This document shows positions 2-35,038 of a stretch of 36,004 bases of DNA, piece by piece. How positions within the stretch are numbered: position 1 is the first letter of the stretch; every line of letters starts with the position of its first letter. The notes under the pieces are model-generated. The model was not told where the DNA came from. It made no database searches and saw nothing but the letters and a program-made list of their open reading frames with translations. A program made the translations under genes and the position numbers. Source of the stretch: Betaproteobacteria bacterium UBA2293 (GTDB taxonomy: Bacteria; Pseudomonadota; Gammaproteobacteria; Burkholderiales; Rhodocyclaceae); assembly GCA_002345845.1 (NCBI GenBank), contig DDWF01000285.1, positions 1 to 36,004 of the forward strand, given 5' to 3'.

Positions 2-1192
2 GACCAGTTCCCGGCGCTGATGGCGCTGGTCGATGCCGCCGTCGCCGCGGTCGCCACGGCCGAGCCGGAGGGCGCCATCGCCCGCCACAGCCGGACGGTG
101 GCCGGTGAACTGCGCCGCCATGGGGCTTCCCAGGCGGTTGCCGAAGGCCTGGGTCGCGCCCGCGTTTTCGGCAACGCCAGCGGCGACTACGGCACCGGCA
201 TCGCCGACGCGGTGCTCGATGACCGCCTCAAGCCGCAGGATGAGCGCCTCGGCCAGCTCTTCCTGCAACGCATGAGCCAGCCCTACGTCGATGGCGTGGC
301 CCTTGCCGATGTCGCGCCGGCTCTCGCCGAGCAGGCGCTCGGCGCCCAGTTGCGGCGCACCGACGCGGCGCTGCTGTCGCGCAGCTCGCACCTCTACGGC
401 ATGGTCACTTCCGACGACCCCTTTCAGTACCTCGGCGGTCTCGCCGCGGCGGCACGTTCGGCCGGCCGCAAGGCGCCGCTCGAACTGTTCGTCAGTCAGT
501 TGCAGAACGCCGACGAGCCGCATGCGCAAACGGCACAGCAGAGCATCGCCATGGAAATGCAGGCGCGCTACCTGCACCCCGGCTGGGTCGCGGCGCTGCA
601 AAAGGAAGGCTATGCCGGGACGCTGCAGGTGCTGAAGGCGGCGCAATTCGCCTGGGGCTGGCAGAGCGTCGTCGACGACGCGGTGCGGGCCGATCACTGG
701 CAGGGCTTGCACGATGTCTTCGTCAAGGACAAGCACGGCCTCGGTGTCCCCGACTGGCTGCGCAGCCACCCGCAGGCCTATGCCCAGACGCTGGAACGCC
801 TGATTCAGGCGGCGCGGCATAAGCACTGGACGCCGGATGCGGCGACGCGCCAGGAACTGGCCAAGCTGTACCGCGAGCTGACGGCGGCAGCGCCGCTGGC
901 CCAGCCATCGCGCGCCGTCGAAGCCTGGGTGGCCGGCGAGTTGCCCGGCACGCCGCGCGACAAGATCAGCGGTGTGGCCCGGCTGGTGGCCGGTGCCACG
1001 CCACAGCCGGCCAGCCCCGATGCAGCGGCGGGTGGCCAGACGGCCGAGGCCTACCAGCCGGTGCGCGGCGAGAAGCTGGCCCGCCGCCCGGACACGGCGC
1101 CGGCCCTGCCGGCCTGGCTGGCGCTGCTGCTGTTCCTGCCGCTGGTCGGTGGTGCGCTCCGGCAGCGCGTAGCGACTAACGGGAACCACTGA
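2..1192 (+). CDS. cobN: CobN-like cobalt/magnesium chelatase large subunit, C-terminal part (5' end outside window)
   Basis: The reading frame is open from the first bases of the window, so this is the last 396 or so residues of a longer protein. CobN/BchH-family large subunits insert a divalent metal into a tetrapyrrole using ATPase partner subunits. Family-typical stretches are visible: the SRSSHLYGMVTSDDPFQYLG block, an LGGLAAAARS block, a YLHPGW motif, and the AAQFAWGWQ and DVFVKDKHGLG segments near the end of the chelatase domain. After a Pro/Ala-rich linker the protein ends in one hydrophobic helix (LPAWLALLLFLPLVGGAL) followed by a basic tail. Classical soluble CobN of the cobalamin pathway lacks this helix. 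By the positive-inside rule the tail is cytoplasmic, which would put the chelatase body in the periplasm; that is inference. No cobalamin gene follows, and msrA lies 101 bases downstream. Confidence 0.88.
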   Translation, partial: DQFPALMALVDAAVAAVATAEPEGAIARHSRTVAGELRRHGASQAVAEGLGRARVFGNASGDYGTGIADAVLDDRLKPQDERLGQLFLQRMSQPYVDGVALADVAPALAEQALGAQLRRTDAALLSRSSHLYGMVTSDDPFQYLGGLAAAARSAGRKAPLELFVSQLQNADEPHAQTAQQSIAMEMQARYLHPGWVAALQKEGYAGTLQVLKAAQFAWGWQSVVDDAVRADHWQGLHDVFVKDKHGLGVPDWLRSHPQAYAQTLERLIQAARHKHWTPDAATRQELAKLYRELTAAAPLAQPSRAVEAWVAGELPGTPRDKISGVARLVAGATPQPASPDAAAGGQTAEAYQPVRGEKLARRPDTAPALPAWLALLLFLPLVGGALRQRVATNGNH

Positions 1193-1280
1193 GTCATCGC
1201 ACCGTCCACTACTGGCGGCAGGCGACGACCGGGCGATTTTGCCCACGTGCCAGCAAAAGCAATGTCATCCGACGACTCAG
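1189..1280 (+). other. Candidate structured leader upstream of msrA
   Basis: An 11-base arm overlapping the cobN stop codon (1189-1199, CTGAGTCATCG) is the inverted complement, with one mismatch, of 1270-1280 (CGACGACTCAG). Nested inside are CTGGC (1212-1216) with GCCAG (1249-1253), and GGGC (1231-1234) with GCCC (1241-1244). The closing arm ends three bases before the msrA ribosome binding site. This could be a folded 5' leader or a terminator-like structure for cobN, although no T-run follows. I do not recognise a known riboswitch class. Confidence 0.3.
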
Positions 1281-1293
1281 ACAAGGACTCATT

Positions 1294-1869
1294 TTGACCC
1301 TCTCCAGTAATTCTCCAACCACCACCGACAGCATCGTCCTCGGCATGGGCTGTTTCTGGGGCGCCGAAAAGCGCATGGCGGCCATTCCCGGCGTGCTCGA
1401 TGTCGAAAGTGGTTACGCCAACGGCGAGATCGCCGGCACCTACGAGGCGGTGCTGGAACACGAACGGCTGCTGCAATGGGGCAAGACGACCCGGCGCAAC
1501 CATGCCGAAGTGGTTAAGGTCACCTTCGACCCTACCCGGGTCGATGTCGAACAGGTGCTGATCGTGTTCTGGGAAAGCCACAATCCGACGCAGGGCGACC
1601 GCCAGGGCAACGACGTCGGCAGCAACTATCGCAGCGCGGTCTATACCAATAGCGACGCCCAGCAGGCCATCGCCCAGAAAACCCGCGATACCTATCAGAG
1701 CGCACTGACGGCCGCCGGCCGGGGCACGATCACCACGGAAATCGCGCCGCTGGCAACCTACTTCACGGCCGAGGAATACCATCAGGATTACCTGGTCAAG
1801 AACCCGAACGGCTACTGTGGCCTGGGTGGCACCGGGGTCAGATATCCGCTCGCCGCTATCGCCACTTAG
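1294..1869 (+). CDS. msrA: Peptide-methionine (S)-S-oxide reductase MsrA
   Basis: MsrA reduces the S epimer of methionine sulfoxide in oxidised proteins, using thioredoxin as the final reductant. The 191-residue protein carries the signature GCFWG with the nucleophilic Cys at residue 20. It also has the conserved GYANG segment, the TQGDRQGNDVGSNYRSAVY block, the EEYHQDYL block and a C-terminal resolving-Cys region (NPNGYCGLGG). The start is TTG; it is chosen because AAGGA (1283-1287) sits six bases upstream and no in-frame ATG lies before the GMGCFWG motif. The length is normal for a single-domain MsrA with no fused MsrB. It is probably transcribed alone or after the cobN-like gene; a possible structured leader precedes it. 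Confidence 0.96.
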   Translation: MTLSSNSPTTTDSIVLGMGCFWGAEKRMAAIPGVLDVESGYANGEIAGTYEAVLEHERLLQWGKTTRRNHAEVVKVTFDPTRVDVEQVLIVFWESHNPTQGDRQGNDVGSNYRSAVYTNSDAQQAIAQKTRDTYQSALTAAGRGTITTEIAPLATYFTAEEYHQDYLVKNPNGYCGLGGTGVRYPLAAIAT

Positions 1870-1940
1870 GCAGGCTGAGGTCTTCATCCGGCAGGTAGCC
1901 GCTTCGTGCCGGACATGGGCAGGTAAGCGCAGCGGCGGCC

Positions 1941-1956
1941 TGTCGCAAAGCCGACA
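1941..1956 (+). promoter_or_regulatory. NifA-type upstream activator sequence (TGT-N10-ACA)
   Basis: TGTCGCAAAGCCGACA matches the NifA enhancer consensus TGT-N10-ACA exactly. Its centre lies about 97 bases before the transcription start predicted from the sigma-54 promoter at 2019-2034. That falls within the usual enhancer distance for NifA. The short consensus can occur by chance, so the call rests on the pairing with the -24/-12 element. Confidence 0.7.
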
Positions 1957-2018
1957 AGAAGCATTTTCCCCTTGCCGTTTGCCGGCCGGGAGCTTGGTTT
2001 TTCGCGGCTTCCGGCGCC

Positions 2019-2034
2019 TGGCATCGCTCTTGCA
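2019..2034 (+). promoter_or_regulatory. Sigma-54 (RpoN) -24/-12 promoter
   Basis: TGGCATCGCTCTTGCA has GG (2020-2021) and GC (2032-2033) separated by exactly ten bases. It agrees with the consensus TGGCAC-N5-TTGCA at all key positions except C to T at the sixth. The predicted start of transcription is near 2045, just ahead of the rhodanese gene. Confidence 0.75.
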
Positions 2035-2073
2035 TCGAGCCGGGCAATGCCTTTTGCCGATTCCCCGCCCGCC

Positions 2074-2412
2074 ATGTCCCTCGCTGAATCCTCCACTTTC
2101 CGCTGCCTGTCCGCCGCCGAGGCCCTCGCCCTGATCGGCGAGGCACCAAGCGTTACGGTCTTCGATGTCCGTGACCTGCCCAGCTACCAGCGCGGCCACC
2201 TCGATGGCGCCGCGCATCTGTCCGAGGATCGTGTCCTGCCCTGGATGCGCCGCCTGGCCAAGGATGCGCCGGTGGTCATCTATTGCTACCACGGCAATGC
2301 CAGCAAGACCTACGCGCAGATGTTCGTCGATTTCCGCTACACCCGCGTCTTCAGCGTCGATGGCGGCTACGAAGCGCTGGCCGCGGTGCGGGTGGCGACG
2401 GTCGCGGCATGA
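2074..2412 (+). CDS. Rhodanese-like single-domain sulfurtransferase (nif-associated)
   Basis: Single-domain rhodaneses move sulfane sulfur from thiosulfate or a persulfide donor to an acceptor through a cysteine persulfide. The 112-residue protein has the CH2A-like DVRDLPSYQRGHLDGA segment and the active-site loop CYHGNAS with Cys71, followed by the VFSVDGGYEAL closing motif. Rhodaneses such as RhdN occur in nif clusters of diazotrophs, where a sulfur-transfer role in metallocluster supply is assumed. ATG 2074 is preferred because transcription from the sigma-54 promoter should begin near 2045. ATG 2047 is in frame but would be almost leaderless, and neither start has a clear Shine-Dalgarno sequence. 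The stop overlaps the next start (ATGA), which indicates translational coupling. Confidence 0.88.
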   Translation: MSLAESSTFRCLSAAEALALIGEAPSVTVFDVRDLPSYQRGHLDGAAHLSEDRVLPWMRRLAKDAPVVIYCYHGNASKTYAQMFVDFRYTRVFSVDGGYEALAAVRVATVAA

Positions 2413-2777
2413 CGGCGGCGCACGTCGCCAGCTGGGTGCGGACGCACGTCCTGACGGCCAGCGACATCGACTGCATCACCACGGTGATGCTGAAGATTCT
2501 CGACGGCAAGTGCAAGATGGACGGCGTCGAGAAAATCGTCATGACGCAGCTCTACGACGCCGTCCAGCACCGTGACGGCGAGCGCTTCGGCGGCGAATAC
2601 CACCGGCTGATCGCCAGCGCCCGCCAGGCGACCGGCGAAGAACTGCGAGACCACATTTACGAAAAGCGCCTGCTGGCCGAAACCATGCTGTCGCGCCCGG
2701 TGATGAAGGCCTTCAAGGCGATGATCCGCGAACAAGGGCTGTTCGTCGGCCTGGCCGAGGAAGAGGCAGTGGCATGA
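2409..2777 (+). CDS. Conserved-looking protein of unknown function in predicted NifA/sigma-54 operon
   Basis: I do not recognise this 122-residue protein. It is predicted soluble and mostly helical, with no signal peptide or membrane segment. It contains two cysteines (ITTVMLKILDGKCKM region and the preceding DC) and a charged central part. The start ATG overlaps the rhodanese stop as ATGA, and its own end overlaps the next gene's start the same way, so it is almost certainly translated as the middle gene of a three-gene operon. Its predicted control by NifA and sigma-54, and its position between a sulfurtransferase and a GST-like protein, suggest a role in nitrogenase maturation or protection. 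The function itself is unknown. Confidence 0.85.
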   Translation: MTAAHVASWVRTHVLTASDIDCITTVMLKILDGKCKMDGVEKIVMTQLYDAVQHRDGERFGGEYHRLIASARQATGEELRDHIYEKRLLAETMLSRPVMKAFKAMIREQGLFVGLAEEEAVA

Positions 2778-3406
2778 CCATGAAGTTCTACATGACCCCC
2801 GGCTCGTGCTCGAGCGGGATCCACATCCTGCTCGAGGAATGCGGCCTGGTCTTCGAGGCATACGTCGTCAACCTGCTGGCCGGCGACCAGTACAAGAAGG
2901 ACTACCTGGCGATCAATCCCAAGGGCAGCGTGCCGGCGCTGGTGCTCGACGACGGCACCGCGTTGACCGAGTTTTCGGCCATCGCCTGGTGGCTGGCGCG
3001 CAGCTACCCGAAGCGCCAGCTGCTGCCGGCAAGTCTGGCCGACGAAGTGCAGGTGCTCAGCGTACTCAATTACGCCGTGCACACCCTGCATACCCAGGGC
3101 TTCGCCCGCATCTTCACTACCGAGCGCTTCGCGCCGAGCAGTTGCGACCATGAATCGGTCAAGGCCCAGGGGCGGCAGATCATTGATCAGGGCTTCGCCA
3201 TCGTCGATCGCCAGCTGGCCGGCCGCGACTTCGTCGTCGATCACTTCACCATCGCCGACGCGGCGCTGTTCTACGTCGAGTTCTGGGCCGAGCGCATCGG
3301 CATCCCGCTGCCGGATAACTGCGCCGCCCACTACCGCCGCCTGCTGACCCGGCCGGCGGTGCGCCAGGTGCTGGCCGAAGAGGGCTACGCCTCGGCGCTG
3401 CGCTAG
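2774..3406 (+). CDS. Beta-class glutathione S-transferase-like protein (NifO-like context)
   Basis: The 210-residue protein has a thioredoxin-fold N-terminal domain beginning KFYMTPGSCSSGIHILLEE. Its Cys12 aligns with the catalytic Cys of beta-class bacterial GSTs. NPKGSVPALVLDDG and LTEFSAIAWWLA form the glutathione-binding half, and an all-helical C-terminal half ends with the FTIADAALFYVEFW motif. The start overlaps the upstream stop (ATGA). GST-like proteins such as NifO accompany nif genes in Azotobacter, and the upstream NifA/sigma-54 elements make a similar role plausible here. Assignment as NifO itself is not proven. Its TAG stop shares the palindrome CTAG with the stop of the convergent AraC gene. 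Confidence 0.9.
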   Translation: MTMKFYMTPGSCSSGIHILLEECGLVFEAYVVNLLAGDQYKKDYLAINPKGSVPALVLDDGTALTEFSAIAWWLARSYPKRQLLPASLADEVQVLSVLNYAVHTLHTQGFARIFTTERFAPSSCDHESVKAQGRQIIDQGFAIVDRQLAGRDFVVDHFTIADAALFYVEFWAERIGIPLPDNCAAHYRRLLTRPAVRQVLAEEGYASALR

Positions 3407-4365
3407 GGCGGCCGGCGCCCTTCGTTGCGCCAGGCCGCCGGTGTTGTGCCGAAAGCCCGCTTGAAGGCGCGGTTGAAGGCGGCATCCGATTCGTAGCCGA
3501 CTTCGGCGGCGATCTGTGCCGTTGCCGCCGTGCTTTCGCGCAGACGCACGGCAGCCAGTTGCAGACGCCAGTGGGCCAGGTAGCGCATCGGTGGCTGGCC
3601 GATCAGGGCGGTGAAACGTTCGGCGAAGGCAGAGCGCGACAGGCCGACTTCGCGCGCCAGTTCCTCGGTGGTCCACGGATGGGCGACGCGGCCGTGCAGC
3701 AGGGCCAGGGCGCGACCGACCAGGCGGTCGCGCAGGCCGGCCAGCCAGCCGCTCTGGCCTTCCGGCAGGGCCGCCACGTAACGGCGCACGCCCTCGACGA
3801 AGAGCAGCTCGGCCAGCTTGCCGAGCACCGCCGCCGAGCCGCTGCTGCTGACGGCGAATTCCGCCGCGGCGTGGCGGAAGGAATTCTCCATCCAGGCGCC
3901 GCCGGCGCCATCGCGCACGCCGAGCTTGAGCAGCGGGGGCAGGGCGTTGAGCAGCTGGTTGTCCGGCACGTCGCAACCGAGATAGCCGCAGATGATGTGC
4001 GTCGGCTCGCCGCCCCCTCCGTGGCGCAGCACCGCCGGGCTCCGTTCGCCCGGCGCCTGCACCTGGTCGTCAATGACTACCGGGCGCAGGTCGGCGGCGC
4101 TGCCCAGGACATGCGCGTCGTTGCGCGGCAGCAGCACGATCTCGCCGGCCAGTACCGGCAGCGGTGCGTCGTCGCCGACGCGCACCAGCAGCCGGCCGTC
4201 GATCACATAGTGGTAGGCGATCAGGTGTGCCGGCATGCGTCCCTGGGCGTCGAAATCCTCCGCCCCGACCTGCGACACCACGCACCACGGTGCGGTGAAT
4301 TCGGCGTCGAGAAAAACCCCGCCGGAAAAGCGTACCGCAGCAAATACCTCGGACAGGACATCCAT
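3403..4365 (-). CDS. AraC-family transcriptional regulator with cupin-type sensor domain
   Basis: The 320-residue protein has an N-terminal AraC-binding cupin-like domain (about residues 5-190, including ICGYLGCD) and a C-terminal pair of helix-turn-helix motifs (about 220-315: ELAREVGLSRSAFAERF and IAAEVGYESDAAFNRAFKR). The start is ATG 4365, because a strong AAGGAGG lies six bases upstream. A TTG-type extension to 4404 is possible but would bury that site. It is divergent from the TPR gene at 4517, with 151 bases between, so that gene is its likely target. It is clearly paralogous to the regulator at 7675-8685, with shared SGWLAGLRDR and VGLSRSA blocks. The inducer is unknown. Confidence 0.93.
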   Translation of the reverse strand: MDVLSEVFAAVRFSGGVFLDAEFTAPWCVVSQVGAEDFDAQGRMPAHLIAYHYVIDGRLLVRVGDDAPLPVLAGEIVLLPRNDAHVLGSAADLRPVVIDDQVQAPGERSPAVLRHGGGGEPTHIICGYLGCDVPDNQLLNALPPLLKLGVRDGAGGAWMENSFRHAAAEFAVSSSGSAAVLGKLAELLFVEGVRRYVAALPEGQSGWLAGLRDRLVGRALALLHGRVAHPWTTEELAREVGLSRSAFAERFTALIGQPPMRYLAHWRLQLAAVRLRESTAATAQIAAEVGYESDAAFNRAFKRAFGTTPAAWRNEGRRPP

Positions 4366-4451
4366 CTTCCGCCTCCTTGAACAAGGCCCCGGCGTTTCGG
4401 TCAAATCTTCCGGCGCCTCGGGTCTGTCAGCACCCCCGGCTGCGGATTATC

Positions 4452-4468
4452 TTGGCACTGCGCGCCAA
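4452..4468. promoter_or_regulatory. Inverted repeat TTGGC-N7-GCCAA in AraC/TPR intergenic region
   Basis: A perfect five-base inverted repeat with a seven-base spacer lies between the divergent AraC gene and the TPR gene, 49 bases before the TPR start. It could be an operator for the shared regulatory region. The repeat is short, so the call is tentative. Confidence 0.3.
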
Positions 4469-4516
4469 CGCCGGCGCCCACGACAAGCAAAACCATCCAG
4501 CCAAAAGGAGAACCCC

Positions 4517-5845
4517 ATGATCCTGCAAGACGATCTCGCGCTTACCTATTCCGGCGCCAGCGCCGACAGCCTCGCGCTCTACCGCCGCGCCCTGCATCAA
4601 TTCGCCTGCTACATCGAAGATCCGGTCGCCACCATCGATGCCGCCATCGCCCAGCAACCGGATTTTGTCATGGCCCACGTATTCAAGGCCTACTTGCACC
4701 TGCTCGGCACCGAACCGGCCGCCCTTGCCGTCGCCCGCGAATGCCTCGACGCCGTCCAGGGCCTGCCGAGCACCCCGCGTGAACGCGGCCACATCGAGGC
4801 GCTCAGCCAGATGCTCGACGGCCAGTGGCAGCGCGCCGGGCGCCTGCTCGAAGACCTCTCCATCGAATTCCCGCGCGACAGCCTGGCGCTGCAAGCCGGC
4901 CATTTGACCGATTTTTACCTCGGCAATTCCCGCCTGCTGCGCGACCGCATCGCCCGCGCGCTGCCCGCCTGGTCGGCGGGCATGCCCGGTTATCACGCGA
5001 TTCTCGGCATGCACGCCTTCGGCCTTGAGGAGATGGGCGACTACGCCCGCGCCGAAGCGCAGGGCAGGGCAGCGCTTGAACACGAAAGGCGTGACGGCTG
5101 GGCCTGGCACGCGGTGGCCCACGTCATGGAAATGCAGTGCCGCACGCGCGACGGCATCGCCTGGCTGCACGCCGATCCGGACGCCTGGTCGACCGACAGC
5201 TTCTTCAAGGTGCACCTGTGGTGGCACCTGGCGCTCTACCACCTCGAACTGGGCGAGATCGACGAAGTGCTGGCGCTGTTCGACGGGCCGATCCACGGTG
5301 AGCGCTCGACCGTCGTCCTCGACATGATCGACGCCTCAGCCTTGCTCTGGCGCCTGCAGCTGCGTGGCATCGATGTCGGCCAGCGCTGGCAGAGCGTCGC
5401 CGACGGCTGGCAGCCGATTGCCACCGCCGGCAACTACGCCTTCAACGACCTGCACGCGGTCATGGCCTTCGTCGGCGCCCAGCGCCCGGAGGTCGTCGCA
5501 GCGGTACTCGAAACCCAGCAATGGGCGATGCAACGCAGCAACGACAACGCCGCCTTCTGCCGCGAAGTCGGTCACCCGCTGACCCTGGCCATCAAGTCTT
5601 TCGGCCAGGGGCGCTACGACGAATGCGTGCGCCTGATCCGTCCGGTTCGCGACATTGCCCAGCGCTTTGGTGGCAGCCACGCCCAGCGCGACCTGATCGA
5701 CCTGACCCTGATCGAAGCCGCGCTGCGCGCCGGCCAGCAGCATCTCGCCGCCGCCCTGTGCGCCGAACGCCTGCCGATGCGTGGTCACAGCCCGCTGACG
5801 CGGCAGTTGCTGGCGCGCAGTGAACCGTTGCGCGTCGCCGCCTGA
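4517..5845 (+). CDS. Tetratricopeptide repeat protein, TTC38-like family
   Basis: The 442-residue protein resembles the TTC38-like family of helical-repeat proteins found in bacteria and animals, whose biochemical role is not established. Recognisable segments are the YRRALHQFACYIEDP opening, DFVMAHVFKAYLHLLGTE, MPGYHAILGMHAFGLEEMGDY, a WAWHAVAHVMEMQ block and SFFKVHLWWHLALYHLELG. There is no signal peptide or membrane helix, so it should be cytoplasmic. The start ATG 4517 has AAGGAG six bases upstream; the open frame continues further upstream but without a better start. It is divergent from an AraC regulator and ends at a strong terminator. Confidence 0.9.
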   Translation: MILQDDLALTYSGASADSLALYRRALHQFACYIEDPVATIDAAIAQQPDFVMAHVFKAYLHLLGTEPAALAVARECLDAVQGLPSTPRERGHIEALSQMLDGQWQRAGRLLEDLSIEFPRDSLALQAGHLTDFYLGNSRLLRDRIARALPAWSAGMPGYHAILGMHAFGLEEMGDYARAEAQGRAALEHERRDGWAWHAVAHVMEMQCRTRDGIAWLHADPDAWSTDSFFKVHLWWHLALYHLELGEIDEVLALFDGPIHGERSTVVLDMIDASALLWRLQLRGIDVGQRWQSVADGWQPIATAGNYAFNDLHAVMAFVGAQRPEVVAAVLETQQWAMQRSNDNAAFCREVGHPLTLAIKSFGQGRYDECVRLIRPVRDIAQRFGGSHAQRDLIDLTLIEAALRAGQQHLAAALCAERLPMRGHSPLTRQLLARSEPLRVAA

Positions 5846-5884
5846 AGCCGACGGGAAGCACCTCGGGCCGAAACCGTGAAGACA

Positions 5885-5911
5885 AAAACGCCGGGATGAA
5901 CCCGGCGTTTT
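5885..5911. terminator. Bidirectional intrinsic terminator between TPR and OmpA-like genes
   Basis: A perfect 11-bp stem (AAAACGCCGGG / CCCGGCGTTTT) with the five-base loop ATGAA lies between two convergent genes. It ends in T-runs on both strands, so it can terminate both transcripts. Confidence 0.9.
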
Positions 5912-5929
5912 ACTTGCGGTCCAGACGAC

Positions 5930-6466
5930 TTACTGAACGCTGAGCAGCAACTCGACCCGGCGGTTGGCGGCGCGGCCCTTGACGGTCGCGTTATCGGCGA
6001 CGGGCGCTTCCTCACCCCGGCCTTCTGCCGTCATCCGCGCGGTCTCGACACCCTTGCCGGCCATGTAAGCAACCACGGCTTTGGCCCGGGCTTCGGAAAG
6101 CGCCTGGTTATAGCGACTGCCCCCGGCGCTATCGGTATGGCCGACCACGGTAAGCTTGCTCGGCGCCACAGCGGACATCGCCGTGGCAATGCAATCGAGG
6201 GCTTCCTGGGCCGCGGGTTGGACCACGCTGCTCGCGGAAGCGAATGCCAAGGCGCCCGGCATCGTCACCCGCAAGGCATCGGCCGACTCGTCGAGCTTCA
6301 ACCCCATCGACTCAAGTGCAGCAAGTTGTTCCTTGAGCTGGACCAGGGGCGAGGCGGCGCCCGGTGTTGTGGACATGGCCTGGGGCGCCGATTCGCCCGG
6401 CGGCTGATTGGCACAGGCGGACAACAGGGCAAGGGAAGCGAACGCGATCAGGGCAGTGGATTTCAT
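5930..6466 (-). CDS. OmpA-family outer-membrane lipoprotein
   Basis: The 178-residue protein begins with a lipoprotein signal peptide whose lipobox LSAC places the lipidated Cys at residue 18. A short coiled segment (about 40-60) is followed by a C-terminal OmpA-like peptidoglycan-binding domain (about 70-178). Its key motifs are VVGHTDSAGGSRYNQALSE, where Asp contacts diaminopimelate, and GRAANRRVELLL with the conserved Arg residues. It should tether the outer membrane to peptidoglycan. ATG 6466 is chosen because AGAGG lies about six bases upstream; a TTG two codons earlier is in frame. It stands alone between terminators at both ends, so it is probably monocistronic. Confidence 0.92.
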   Translation of the reverse strand: MKSTALIAFASLALLSACANQPPGESAPQAMSTTPGAASPLVQLKEQLAALESMGLKLDESADALRVTMPGALAFASASSVVQPAAQEALDCIATAMSAVAPSKLTVVGHTDSAGGSRYNQALSEARAKAVVAYMAGKGVETARMTAEGRGEEAPVADNATVKGRAANRRVELLLSVQ

Positions 6467-6575
6467 GAACAACCTCTTGTGACGATGAATGGACTCGTTG
6501 GCGCGGCGGGCATGTTGCCTGCCATAAAAAGTCGAACATCATATATCAGATGTCATGTTCCGGAGGCGGTCCGCT

Positions 6576-8709: not shown

Positions 8710-9546
8710 TCACCCGCCTGCTGCATGCCGCTGGTCTGCCAGCCGCGAGAGTGCCCGCGACAGCGCCGAGGAGTTGATATAGCCGGCGTCGCGGGCGGCG
8801 GTTTTCAAACCCTTGCCCGCCTGTACGGCGCGCCGGGCGATGGCCAAGCGGATGGCCGAGAGGTATTTGCCCGGCGTTTGCCGCATCACGTCACGAAAGG
8901 TATTGGCGAAGGCAGTGCGCGACATGCCGGCTGTTGCGGCCAGCGTTTCCAGCGTCCATCTGTCTTGCGGTCGGGTGTGGATGGCGACCAGGGCACGGGC
9001 GATGCGCGGATCGGCAAGGCCGCTCAACAGTCCGCCGGTGCTTGTCGGGTGGGCAATCAGGTGGCGCAGCAAGCCGATGAACAGGATGTCGCCGGCGCGG
9101 TCGAGCAGGGCCGGCTGGCCGCAACGCGGCGCCTGCAGTTCAGCGGCGATCAGGTTGATCAGGTGGCCGAGCGAGGTTTCGGCGCCAGCCAGCGACACCA
9201 CCTGCGGTTCGGCAAATTCGCCCAGCAGCAGCGGGGCGACCGGTCCGTCGAGCCAGGCGCGGGCGCACATCAGGTGGCGGAAGGCGGCGGGCGACCCGGC
9301 GGCCAGTGCATGCGCGGTGTCGGCCCGGGAAACAAGGATGCACGGTGCCTGCAGCAGCTGGCTGGCGGTCGATGGCAATTCGAGGCGCAGGTGGCCCTCG
9401 GCCAGCAGATAGAGGTGCAGGCAGGGCGCCGCCTCGGCGGCAACCGTCAGGCAAGTGATGTCGGACGGCGCCAGACTGACCCGCACGCGCGGTGCCAGGC
9501 CGGCGAGCAGGGCGGAGAGTCGGTCGAGGCGGGCGGTAGCTGGCAT
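8710..9546 (-). CDS. AraC-family transcriptional regulator
   Basis: The 278-residue regulator has an N-terminal sensor domain of the AraC-binding cupin-like type (SDITCLTVAAEAAPCLHLYL, CILVSRADTAHAL). The C-terminal DNA-binding half contains TLETLAATAGMSRTAFANTF and then TAARDAGYINSSALSRAL. The protein stops soon after the second recognition helix, so the usual final helix is shortened. ATG 9546 is chosen; a TTG at 9561 is in frame and neither has a clear ribosome binding site. It is divergent from the peroxiredoxin-like gene at 9702 and convergent with the preceding AraC gene, 24 bases away. A 20-base piece of its 3' end recurs exactly at 14810-14829. Confidence 0.9.
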   Translation of the reverse strand: MPATARLDRLSALLAGLAPRVRVSLAPSDITCLTVAAEAAPCLHLYLLAEGHLRLELPSTASQLLQAPCILVSRADTAHALAAGSPAAFRHLMCARAWLDGPVAPLLLGEFAEPQVVSLAGAETSLGHLINLIAAELQAPRCGQPALLDRAGDILFIGLLRHLIAHPTSTGGLLSGLADPRIARALVAIHTRPQDRWTLETLAATAGMSRTAFANTFRDVMRQTPGKYLSAIRLAIARRAVQAGKGLKTAARDAGYINSSALSRALSRLADQRHAAGG

Positions 9547-9701
9547 GTGTACGAATTGCAACGATTAATGAACGCGGGTTTGCGTTTAGTTCAGCACAAT
9601 GGCTCTGCTCGGTCAAGCAAGGAATGCCGGGAGCGGCCAGCCGTGTCGGCCGCCCGGAAGGTTCCGGCGAAACCCCTGTTCAATCAACGAAAGGATGCTC
9701 C

Positions 9702-10250
9702 ATGTCCATTACTGCCCTGATGCCGCGCCAGCCGGTTCCCGCCCTCGCCGTCGCCCTGACCGGTGGCGGCCGTTTCGTGCTCGGCGCCGAACCTGCCGAG
9801 CGCTTCGATCTGATCGTGTTTTACCGTGGCCTGCATTGCCCGATCTGCGCCAAGTACCTGCTGGAACTCGAGCGTCTGGCGCCGGAATTCGCCAAGCGTG
9901 GCGTCCGCATCGTCGCCGTCAGCAGCGACGAGGCCGAACGCGCCCAGGCGATGGCCGACAAGGTCAAGGCCGACGGCATGCAGATCGGCTACGGCCTGAG
10001 TCTCGGCAACGCCCGCCAGTGGGGGCTGTACATCAGCGCCGCGCGCGGCAAGACCTCGATCGGCATCGAGGAACCGGCGCTGTTCAGCGAACCGGGCGTG
10101 TTCCTGGTCCGCCCGGACGGCACCCTGTATTACGGCGCGGTGCAGACCATGCCCTTCGCCCGGCCGCAGTTTCAGGATCTGCTCGGCGCCATCGATTTCG
10201 CCATCGCCCATGACTACCCGGCGCGCGGTGAATATCAGGGCGCCGTTTGA
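9702..10250 (+). CDS. Peroxiredoxin-like (AhpC/TSA superfamily) protein
   Basis: The 182-residue protein has a thioredoxin fold of the AhpC/TSA superfamily. A LIVFYRGLHCPICAKYLLEL active-site segment contains Cys46 and Cys49. It is followed by LAPEFAKRGVRIVAVSSDE and the FLVRPDGTLYYGAVQ strand. The TxxC signature of typical peroxiredoxins is replaced by a CPIC pair, so a thiol-disulfide reductase or atypical peroxidase activity is equally possible. AAGGA (9691-9695) lies six bases before ATG 9702, which decides the start over the longer open frame. It is divergent from an AraC regulator, its probable controller. It has no signal peptide and should be cytoplasmic. Confidence 0.9.
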   Translation: MSITALMPRQPVPALAVALTGGGRFVLGAEPAERFDLIVFYRGLHCPICAKYLLELERLAPEFAKRGVRIVAVSSDEAERAQAMADKVKADGMQIGYGLSLGNARQWGLYISAARGKTSIGIEEPALFSEPGVFLVRPDGTLYYGAVQTMPFARPQFQDLLGAIDFAIAHDYPARGEYQGAV

Positions 10251-24784: not shown

Positions 24785-25118
24785 TTTCGTCCTCCCGTCG
24801 GAATGTTCTGCTCTTGGCGAGAGGCCGCAGCAATATCGATGCCATGCCGAAGGAATGCTCGGCTATTGGTGCCGGGCCTTGCCTGGCAATGGTTGACGGC
24901 CGGAAAGTCGGGCCGGCGCACGGTAAGGGCAAGCGGCAAATTTTGCGGTCGACCGGAAAAATTCCCGTTTTTTGCGGCTGGCCATCAAGGACATCCTGCG
25001 GCCGGAGTGCACGGAGTACCCGGAACTCCCATCTCCGGCGCGGTCAAAGCATCATGACCCGCCGCGGCGGGGGCAAGGTCCCGCTCCGTCGCGCCCTGCG
25101 CGGGCGAGGAGATCAATC
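24785..25118. other. Divergent intergenic region, 334 bases
   Basis: This is the shared upstream region of the hypothetical protein and the Yip1-family gene. The only structure I can point to is the perfect palindrome CCCGCCGCGGCGGG at 25058-25071, close to the Yip1-family start. I see no convincing gene or small RNA. Confidence 0.4.
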
Positions 25119-33157: not shown

Positions 33158-35038
33158 ATGTTCGACGCAGTCCGCAATAACAAGATCATCACCCAGGCGA
33201 TTCTTGGTCTGATCGCCATCACCTTCGCTTTTTTCGGCCTTGAATCCTATGTCCGTGACCCGGGTTCGGCTGGCGACGTGGCAAAAATCGGTGATCTGAC
33301 GATCAGCCAGCAGCACTTTCAGGAAGCTCTGCGTGAACAGCAGGAGCGCCTGCGGACCCAGCTCGGCGAGCAGTACAACGCCAAGATGCTCGAGGCACCG
33401 GAAGCGCGCAAGGCCATCCTCGATGATCTGATCAACCAGCGCCTGTTGATGCTGGAAGCGACCAAGCACCGGATGTTCGTCAGCGACGAGGCGATCCGCC
33501 AGACCATCCTCGGCATCCAGGCCTTCAATGTCGACGGCCGTTTCTCCAACGAACGCTACGAGGCGGCCCTGCGCGCCCAGGGCATGACACCGGCCGGTTT
33601 CGAAGCCCAGCTGCGCCAGGATCTGACGCTGCAGCAACTGGCCGGTTCGATCGCCCGCTCGACAATCAACGCCAATGCCTCGGTTGCCCGCATCCTGGCG
33701 CTGCAAACGGAAAAACGTGACGTCTCGGAAGTGCTCATCAGTCTCGAAAGCCACCTCGACAAGGTCAAGCTGGCCGACGACGCAGCACGCAAGTACTACG
33801 ATGAAAACAGCAAGCAGTTCCAGATGCCGGAACAGGCTGTGGCCGAATACGTCGTGCTGTCCATGGACGCCATCAGCGATCAACTGACGGTCAGCGAGGC
33901 CGAGATTCAAGCCTGGTATGAGGGCCATCGCAACCAGTTCGAGCAGCCCGAAGAGCGCCGCGCCAGCCACATTCTGGTGGCATCGGAAAAGCTCGGTATG
34001 GACAAGGCACGCGTGAAAGCCGAAGAGCTGCTGGCGGAAATCCGCAAGAATCCCGGCCGCTTCGCCGAACTGGCTGGCAAGAATTCGGATGACCCGGGTT
34101 CGGCCAGCAAGGGCGGCGATCTCGGTTACTTCGCGCGCGGCATGATGGTCAAACCCTTCGAGGACACTGCCTTCGCGCTTGCAGATGGCGAGATTTCCGG
34201 TGTCGTCGAATCGGATTTCGGTTTCCACATCATCAAGGTGTCGGGCATCCGTGCAGCCAAGCTGAAGCCGTTGGCCGAAGTGCGCAGCCAGATCGAGGCC
34301 GATCTGAAGAAGACCGCTGCCTCGCGCAAGTTCGCCGAAGCCGCCGAGGCTTTCAGCAACACCGTCTATGAACAGGCCGATAGCCTGGCGCCGGTCGCCG
34401 AAACCTTCAAGCTCAAGATCAACCGCTCCGGCTGGTTGGAACGTCAGCCCAATCCGGCCAACGGCCCGTTGGCCAACGAGAAGCTTCTGGCCTCGCTGTT
34501 CAGCGAAGATTCGACCAAGAACCGGCGCAATACGGAAGCGGTGGAGATTGCCTCGAACACGCTGGTGGCCGCCCGGGTCGTCGATTATCGCCCGGCTGCA
34601 CTGCAGGAATTTGCCGGCCTCAAGGCCAGCATCGAAACCCTGCTGCGGCGCCAGGAAGCGCAAGTGATGGCCCGCCAGGAAGGCGAAGCACGTCTCGCCG
34701 CGCTGAAGAATGGCGAAGATCGTCAGTCGTGGAGCGCCGGCAAACTGGTTTCGCGCCTCGATTCCCGTCTGCTGCCACCGCCAGCCGTGCCGGTTGTCTT
34801 CCGTATGGATGCCGGAAAACTACCCAGCTATGCCGGTGTCGAGTTGCCTGGCGCCGGTTATGCTCTCCTTCGCCTGAACCGTGTCGATGCCGGCGCGGCG
34901 CTTGACGAAACCAGCCGCAAGACCTTGCAGGGGCAGCTGGACAACTTCTCGGCCCAGGAAGAACTCCGTCTCTACCTGGCAGCCCTGCGTAACCGCTACA
35001 AGGTTGAAATCAATCAATCGGCGCTGGAAAACAAATAA
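33158..35038 (+). CDS. ppiD: Periplasmic peptidyl-prolyl isomerase PpiD (SurA N-terminal/parvulin)
   Basis: PpiD is an inner-membrane-anchored chaperone of the periplasm that helps secreted proteins leave the Sec channel. The 626-residue protein starts with the typical MFDAVRNNKIITQ and an anchor helix (about 12-30). A SurA-N-type chaperone region (about 40-160) follows, then a parvulin domain (about 265-362: RRASHILVAS, GGDLGYFARGMMVKPFEDTAF, SDFGFHIIKV) and a long C-terminal helical region. Length and order match the family. AAGGA lies about ten bases before ATG 33158. It converges with fabI across a strong terminator. Confidence 0.96.
   Translation: MFDAVRNNKIITQAILGLIAITFAFFGLESYVRDPGSAGDVAKIGDLTISQQHFQEALREQQERLRTQLGEQYNAKMLEAPEARKAILDDLINQRLLMLEATKHRMFVSDEAIRQTILGIQAFNVDGRFSNERYEAALRAQGMTPAGFEAQLRQDLTLQQLAGSIARSTINANASVARILALQTEKRDVSEVLISLESHLDKVKLADDAARKYYDENSKQFQMPEQAVAEYVVLSMDAISDQLTVSEAEIQAWYEGHRNQFEQPEERRASHILVASEKLGMDKARVKAEELLAEIRKNPGRFAELAGKNSDDPGSASKGGDLGYFARGMMVKPFEDTAFALADGEISGVVESDFGFHIIKVSGIRAAKLKPLAEVRSQIEADLKKTAASRKFAEAAEAFSNTVYEQADSLAPVAETFKLKINRSGWLERQPNPANGPLANEKLLASLFSEDSTKNRRNTEAVEIASNTLVAARVVDYRPAALQEFAGLKASIETLLRRQEAQVMARQEGEARLAALKNGEDRQSWSAGKLVSRLDSRLLPPPAVPVVFRMDAGKLPSYAGVELPGAGYALLRLNRVDAGAALDETSRKTLQGQLDNFSAQEELRLYLAALRNRYKVEINQSALENK

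Follow-up and report, generated by a model that had tools for sequence, protein, structure and literature searches.

A rhodanese-ORF2-glutathione transferase operon as a probable accessory unit of the nif regulon, detached from the main nif cluster

INTRODUCTION

Can an operon found away from the nif genes be assigned to the nif regulon, and what might it contribute to nitrogenase? This question is raised by three overlapping genes of a betaproteobacterial contig, which code for a rhodanese, a protein called ORF2 here and a glutathione transferase (GST), and which follow putative binding elements for NifA and sigma-54. The nitrogenase-assembly parts list is still growing, and transferring nitrogenase to new hosts by engineering requires knowledge of its accessory genes. 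Accessory operons controlled by NifA and sigma-54 are a kind already known.

RESULTS

Promoter elements and layout of the operon

The window, i.e., the whole stretch of 36,004 nucleotides analyzed here, carries on its forward strand the genes for the rhodanese (2074-2412, 112 residues), ORF2 (2409-2777, 122 residues) and the GST (2774-3406, 210 residues). The initial annotation described three genes joined by ATGA overlaps, and both junctions, rhodanese/ORF2 and ORF2/GST, were indeed found in the sequence. It also placed an exact TGT-N10-ACA site at 1941-1956 and a GG-N10-GC sigma-54 promoter at 2019-2034. Both were confirmed on the forward strand, the former as a match to the NifA upstream activator sequence (UAS), TGTCGCAAAGCCGACA, and the latter as an exact -24/-12 element, TGGCATCGCTCTTGCA, with GG at 2020-2021 and GC at 2032-2033. 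The two elements are 78 bases apart. Sigma-54-dependent transcription starts about 12 nucleotides after the GC element, and this geometry predicts a start near 2045, about 97 nucleotides after the center of the UAS, as the annotation had proposed. With that start, translation from an ATG at 2047 would have hardly any leader; the relatives place the start of the rhodanese gene at 2074.

The left part of the window is occupied by cobN, which is open at its 5' end and extends to 1192. The methionine sulfoxide reductase A gene msrA (1294-1869) lies between cobN and the operon, and a convergent AraC-type gene, ending at 3403, comes after the GST gene. Rfam and tRNA scans gave no match. Genes for methionine sulfoxide reductase A are repeatedly found near ORF2, up- or downstream, in betaproteobacterial loci; apart from the window, such a gene was present at 8 of the 80 relatives' loci described below (L003, L004, L005, L006, L007, L008, L012 and L018).

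Taken from the window alone, neither motif is significant, as each occurs singly at chance level. Two UAS matches were found in the 36 kb for 2.87 expected, and promoter-like sites, allowing two mismatches at most, numbered 40 (two of them exact) for 33.9 expected. The chance-level frequency of TGT-N10-ACA would suit an operon whose sigma-54 promoter answers to another activator, NtrC or a stress activator, the TGT-N10-ACA being incidental.

Conservation of the UAS-promoter pair

Scanning genome contigs with an ORF2 alignment yielded 143 loci, and the best 80 of them were retained. In 25 of these, ORF2 comes directly after the rhodanese gene, and together with the window they formed a comparison set of 26 sequences. 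We searched the 263 bases before each rhodanese start for an exact TGT-N10-ACA and TGGC-N7-TTGC. Both elements were kept in 20 of the 26 sequences (19 of 25 without the window). By comparison, the pair arose at 0.0005 per sequence in first-order simulated sequence and, with its elements 41-199 bases apart, in 5 of 278 regions upstream of other ORFs of the 25 loci, a control set that was unscreened for true nif promoters and came from an imperfect ORF picker, which gave spurious high-GC frames in Azotobacter vinelandii, so some regions may front no real gene. Four of the five control pairs were in L013, L019 and L023, and one was in L065. Chance was rejected on these figures as an explanation of the pair. 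Thus, the NifA/sigma-54 signal can be regarded as real because the pair is conserved before the same genes in relatives.

The spacing between UAS and promoter, among the 20 sequences with both, was 77-80 in 13, 67-68 in 6 and 114 in one (L022), the last being out of phase; Rayleigh p-values for the spacing phase ignore shared ancestry and are descriptive only. The surroundings of both elements were poorly conserved, and the UAS consensus was TGTCGCaAAg.CgACA. The exact pair in 19 of 25 relatives and the phased spacing in 19 of 20 sequences argue against an activator other than NifA.

The pair was missing from six of the 26 sequences. Neither element was found in L010, L013, L019 and L023, where transcription may begin further upstream, since NifX-like and flavodoxin genes precede the operon. 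L011, which sits at the end of its contig, had only the UAS, and L034 kept the promoter without an exact UAS. In L032, L049 and L060, a TGT-N10-ACA stands on the other side of the promoter, about 40 bases past the -24 element and before the ORF2 start, rather than upstream.

The same signal in other settings and at nif genes

A wider scan of the 80 loci, with a slightly different promoter pattern and up to 3.5 kb upstream of ORF2, showed the signal in other ARRANGEMENTS, with UAS-promoter pairs at 27 of the 80 loci, single cases of which may be due to chance. The pairs before the operons of A. vinelandii CA, A. chroococcum and A. beijerinckii have spacings of 79, 79 and 80, respectively, and are found some 2.9 kb before ORF2, close to the start of a SagB-like first gene; the longest ORF of the SagB-like gene in L028 begins before the pair. 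The operon of A. vinelandii CA, at 4.93 Mb, has the gene order SagB-like, rhodanese, NifX-like, ORF2, GST. At Methylomonas-type loci with a NifX-like gene in first position, the spacing is 67 or 78-80. Pairs were also found before rhodanese-GST genes without ORF2 in G036 (spacing 77) and before a lone GST gene in G155 (spacing 78). At the Azonexus hydrophilus locus L007, which has ORF2 without rhodanese or GST, a promoter at -102 is preceded 78 bases upstream, at -180, by a UAS with one mismatch. The locus with rhodanese and ORF2 in G151 (L106) had a UAS match without a promoter match. With L106 as the counterexample, the signal accompanies the genes where rhodanese, ORF2 and GST are found apart.

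We also checked nine pieces of 19-20 kb from the nif regions of five genomes. They contained six UAS-promoter pairs, with spacings of 56, 56, 58, 76, 78 and 79, and five of the nine pieces, including that of A. vinelandii and both of G029, were without a pair. The pair with a spacing of 78 precedes nifB of G001, the genome of the closest relative, and this equality with the window operon is a further point against another activator.

Occurrence of the three genes in nitrogen fixers

Among the 45 ORF2-carrying genomes examined, drawn from the best 80 of the 143 loci, nifH was above the cut-off in 40. The other five had nifH fragments (G002 and G030) or only weak matches (G011, G013 and G014); in all five, and also in G212 (see below), nifB was above the cut-off. 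nifA was above the cut-off in 19 of 19 tested relatives, including the three without nifH.

In a sample of 199 genomes from the family of the closest relative, nifH was detected in 88 (E up to 1e-50; 84 above the cut-off). ORF2 was present in 22 of the 199, 21 of them with nifH, and the remaining one, G212, had nifB. The ORF2 match of G191 is weak (E 3e-4), and dropping this genome gives 20 of 21 with nifH. At E limits chosen by the analyst, GST (up to 1e-60) and rhodanese (up to 1e-25) were each found in 20 genomes, 20 of 20 with nifH in both cases. Hypergeometric tails for the association with nifH were 1e-7 for ORF2 and 2e-8 for each of GST and rhodanese, values that overstate it because the species are related. 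In 274 genomes from the class of A. vinelandii, 31 with nifH, ORF2 was found in 7, 6 of which had nifH (tail 9e-6). The seventh, G478, has ORF2 without a match to nifH (E up to 1e-50) or nifB (E up to 1e-20) and is either a real exception or an incomplete genome. The ORF2 family thus appears, from these genome searches, to occur largely in nitrogen fixers. All three genes are almost completely confined to genomes that have nifH or nifB, and this also speaks against control by NtrC or a stress activator, which we regard as improbable. ORF2 was absent from 67 of the 88 nifH genomes of the family sample (present in 21); as most fixers of the family do without it, it is accessory rather than essential.

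In 5 of the 45 genomes (G023, G035, G036, G037 and G044), the contig with ORF2 also carries a nifH copy no more than 50 kb away from it; this count is a lower bound because drafts break contigs. The third nifH copy of A. vinelandii, which we take to be anfH, is 28 kb away from ORF2. The distance was up to 30 kb in 4 of the 6 genomes of the class sample that have both (G023, G282, G394 and G421). In G011, 2.5 kb separate ORF2 from nifB and 15 kb separate it from nifA; in the complete chromosome of G029, nifH is 433 kb away from ORF2. Among the relatives with a genome, the closest one (L003 in G001) shares 90.5% DNA identity over window positions 2-6557. It has nifH, nifB and nifA, all on contigs other than that of the operon, and none of the three was found within the 27 kb of contig that remain on the side named by the initial annotation. 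The comparison of motifs and loci therefore favors the annotation's proposal of a putative accessory unit under NifA and sigma-54 that lies apart from the main nif cluster. In view of the conservation, regulation of the operon by NifA and sigma-54 is very likely.

The rhodanese and the glutathione transferase

Family-level annotation alone gives only a rhodanese and a GST, which would also be the result if ordinary housekeeping glpE and GST genes stood beside motif look-alikes. The rhodanese matched Pfam PF00581 (E 2e-16, 60.6 bits, cut-off 22.2). Its best solved relative is E. coli GlpE (1gmx, E 1.6e-17), with which it shares a single rhodanese domain and a CYHGN(A/S)S active-site loop. The active-site Cys71, in CYHGNAS, was conserved in 34 of 34 rows that have a residue at that site, in an alignment of 35 rows (one gapped there) from which relatives below 50% identity were left out. 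Unlike GlpE, the window protein falls below the NCBIfam GlpE equivalog cut-off (85.5 of 102 bits), has a NifA-type promoter and is encoded between msrA and an AraC-type gene as neighbors of the operon.

The initial annotation had related this protein to the rhodaneses of nif clusters. In A. vinelandii, a rhodanese gene lies 1.5 kb after nifB, and we take its product to be RhdN. The window rhodanese is 30% identical to that protein over 79 residues, compared with 65% identity to the rhodanese of the A. vinelandii ORF2 operon. RhdN identity was rejected on this low identity and on the location of the operon in G001, on a contig other than that of nifB. The ORF2-linked rhodanese ORF has 261-262 codons in the Azotobacter loci L028, L029 and L033 and in L076, and in the last of these (8841-9629) it is fused to ankyrin repeats.

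The GST matched Pfam PF13409 (E 2e-16) and PF13410 (E 4e-8) and is beta-class-like. Its Cys12 and His106 align to Cys10 and His106 of E. coli GstA (1a0f), presumably the catalytic residues of that enzyme in GstA numbering. Cys12, His106 and an extra Cys183 were invariant (41 of 41). The likeness to beta-class enzymes (1a0f and 1pmt) thus consists of the GST family and of an aligned catalytic-type Cys and His; the window protein differs from GstA in its score below the NCBIfam GstA equivalog cut-off (123.3 of 198 bits), in Cys183 and in the presence of nifH in all 20 family-sample genomes with close relatives. The sub-cut-off scores of both proteins, together with the presence of nifH, at the chosen E limits, in 20 of 20 family-sample genomes carrying close relatives of each, make the housekeeping explanation very improbable.

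The suggestion that the third gene might be a GST-like NifO was not borne out. NifO is ArsC/Spx-like, and the P. stutzeri A1501 gene between nifB and nifQ is presumably nifO. The matches of the window protein at E up to 1 were all of GST type, ArsC/Spx families being absent among them, and NifO identity was rejected on this basis. The A1501 gene is listed as arsenate-reductase-related in PMC2820453. A plasmid search with the GST gave as the best two organisms L001, whose locus is within a nif region, and L002, with no nif-named gene in 30 kb of incomplete annotation.

The ORF2 protein

ORF2 has 1098 relatives in the protein database. It matched no family above the cut-off in Pfam, NCBIfam or PADLOC, and 43 members searched singly in Pfam gave a best E of 0.041. 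Cys22 and Cys35 were invariant (81 of 81), and the protein has a D-C-x(4)-M-L-K-x(2)-D-G-K-C-x-M motif. The structure model has six helices (mean pLDDT 90.6). A PDB sequence search with the ORF2 profile gave a best E of 0.048, and Foldseek and VIA-align searches with the model returned no convincing match, which does not show a new fold. We found no description of ORF2 or of the rhodanese-ORF2-GST operon among the titles and opening abstract lines of the openly licensed PMC papers that were listed. The ORF2 family and this particular operon therefore appear to be undescribed in the family libraries and in that literature.

The partners of ORF2 were counted at the 80 loci by tblastn with fixed queries, so that only supplied queries were detectable and cuts at contig ends counted as none. 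Directly upstream of ORF2 were a rhodanese (25 loci), a NifX-like domain (25), an AAA ATPase (9), an LRV protein (1) or other/none (20); directly downstream were a GST (36), a flavodoxin (4), an AAA protein (3), a TPR protein (2) or other/none (35). ORF2 is the constant element, as its partners vary across the loci, and it seems from this census to be a recurrent partner that elsewhere directly follows a NifX-like or AAA ATPase gene instead of a rhodanese gene. With starts extrapolated from alignments, 4-base overlaps were found at 41 of 60 upstream junctions and 23 of 36 GST junctions; junctions with an upstream AAA gene were mostly not overlaps (1 of 9). The stand-alone NifX-like domain aligns with the NifB model in its C-terminal part, at positions 330-439 (E 9e-26), and in L076 such a domain (9642-10004) is directly upstream of ORF2. 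The AAA ATPase has 564-574 residues and stands beside ORF2 at 12 of the 80 loci (9 upstream and 3 downstream), e.g., L013:10378-12084. The nif region of the Methylococcus plasmid encodes an ATP-binding protein (L001:11624-13327) likened to it by its similar length only.

DISCUSSION

Overall, the best explanation of positions 1941-3406, its proposed mechanism and function included, is a detached accessory operon of the nif regulon, to which we give a probability of about 0.6. NifA bound at 1941-1956 would activate the sigma-54 RNA polymerase at 2019-2034 via DNA looping, and because of this activation the rhodanese, ORF2 and the GST would be produced when nitrogenase is. Using thiosulfate-type donors, the rhodanese would form a protein persulfide; the Cys/His GST would handle the glutathione side, i.e., glutathione persulfide or mixed-disulfide chemistry, and ORF2 might serve as an adaptor, either passing on sulfur or holding a partner in the maturation of the nitrogenase metal clusters. 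We rank a supply of sulfur or thiol for nitrogenase cluster maturation first among the possible functions, as a tentative assignment somewhat short of even odds; the presence of two cysteines is no proof of sulfur transfer. That rhodanese, ORF2 and GST each occur apart weakens the case for a single machine of three proteins.

Ranked second, as a possibility that deserves consideration, the operon could be a protective thiol-redox unit under NifA, devoted to repair or detoxification of reactive sulfur, oxidized thiols, electrophiles or O2 by-products during nitrogenase work, with ORF2 as a redox chaperone. Such a role is consistent with the nature of GST and rhodanese, two thiol enzymes whose catalytic-type Cys is intact, with the methionine sulfoxide reductase gene near the unit in the window and at 8 of 80 relatives' loci and with the hemerythrin genes found within 6 kb of ORF2 at 9 of the 80 loci. 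However, msrA is outside the operon and variable in position, and directly upstream of ORF2 a NifX-like cofactor-carrier domain is found as often as a rhodanese (25 of 80 loci each), a pointer to cofactor handling.

Sulfur or thiol supply remains our preferred function. A bolder extension of it, which we consider less likely than not, is that ORF2 represents an unrecognized family of nitrogenase-maturation factors, present even in A. vinelandii. It would be a NifA-induced, two-cysteine helical adaptor coupling interchangeable partners (rhodanese, NifX-like cofactor carrier, AAA ATPase and GST) in sulfur or cofactor delivery outside the known nif set.

Among known systems, the nifB-nifQ cluster of P. 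stutzeri A1501 and A. vinelandii can be compared with the window operon; the names nifO and rhdN and the A. vinelandii gene order are assumed here. It comprises nifB, with NifA/sigma-54 signals, an ArsC-like gene, nifQ, a glpE-like rhodanese gene and a glutaredoxin gene. The likeness lies in these signals and in a GlpE-type rhodanese beside glutathione-linked or thioredoxin-fold genes, according to the table for A1501 in PMC2820453. In contrast to that cluster, the window operon has a different rhodanese (30% identity), a GST in place of the glutaredoxin and the ArsC-like protein, and ORF2, and it is separated from the nifB contig in G001. Other function-unassigned genes tied to nitrogen fixation, and in this respect like ORF2, are pnfA of A1501, which is NifA/sigma-54 dependent, found only in fixers and codes for a 31.7-kDa protein, and nafU of A. 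vinelandii, whose product is an inner-membrane protein, as described in PMC8907163 and PMC2820453. For comparison, ORF2 has 122 residues.

The operon adds three genes that occur largely in fixers, together with a clear promoter signature and a family absent from Pfam and NCBIfam, and the version of the operon in A. vinelandii, a laboratory strain, makes the function testable. The phased UAS-promoter pair conserved across relatives can locate members of the nif regulon far from the nif cluster.

Two other genes of the window may be mentioned. A peptidylprolyl isomerase gene (33158-35038, forward strand) matches the NifM model below the cut-off (104.5 of 168.2 bits) and looks ordinary. The second exact -24/-12 element, TGGCATCGATATTGCT (24829-24844, reverse strand), lies 45 bases before a gene for a 284-residue protein (24784-23930) without a Pfam or NCBIfam match. 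In L014 the identical element, which has no UAS with it, precedes a gene that is 75% identical to this one, and the window gene is possibly a sigma-54 gene under another activator.
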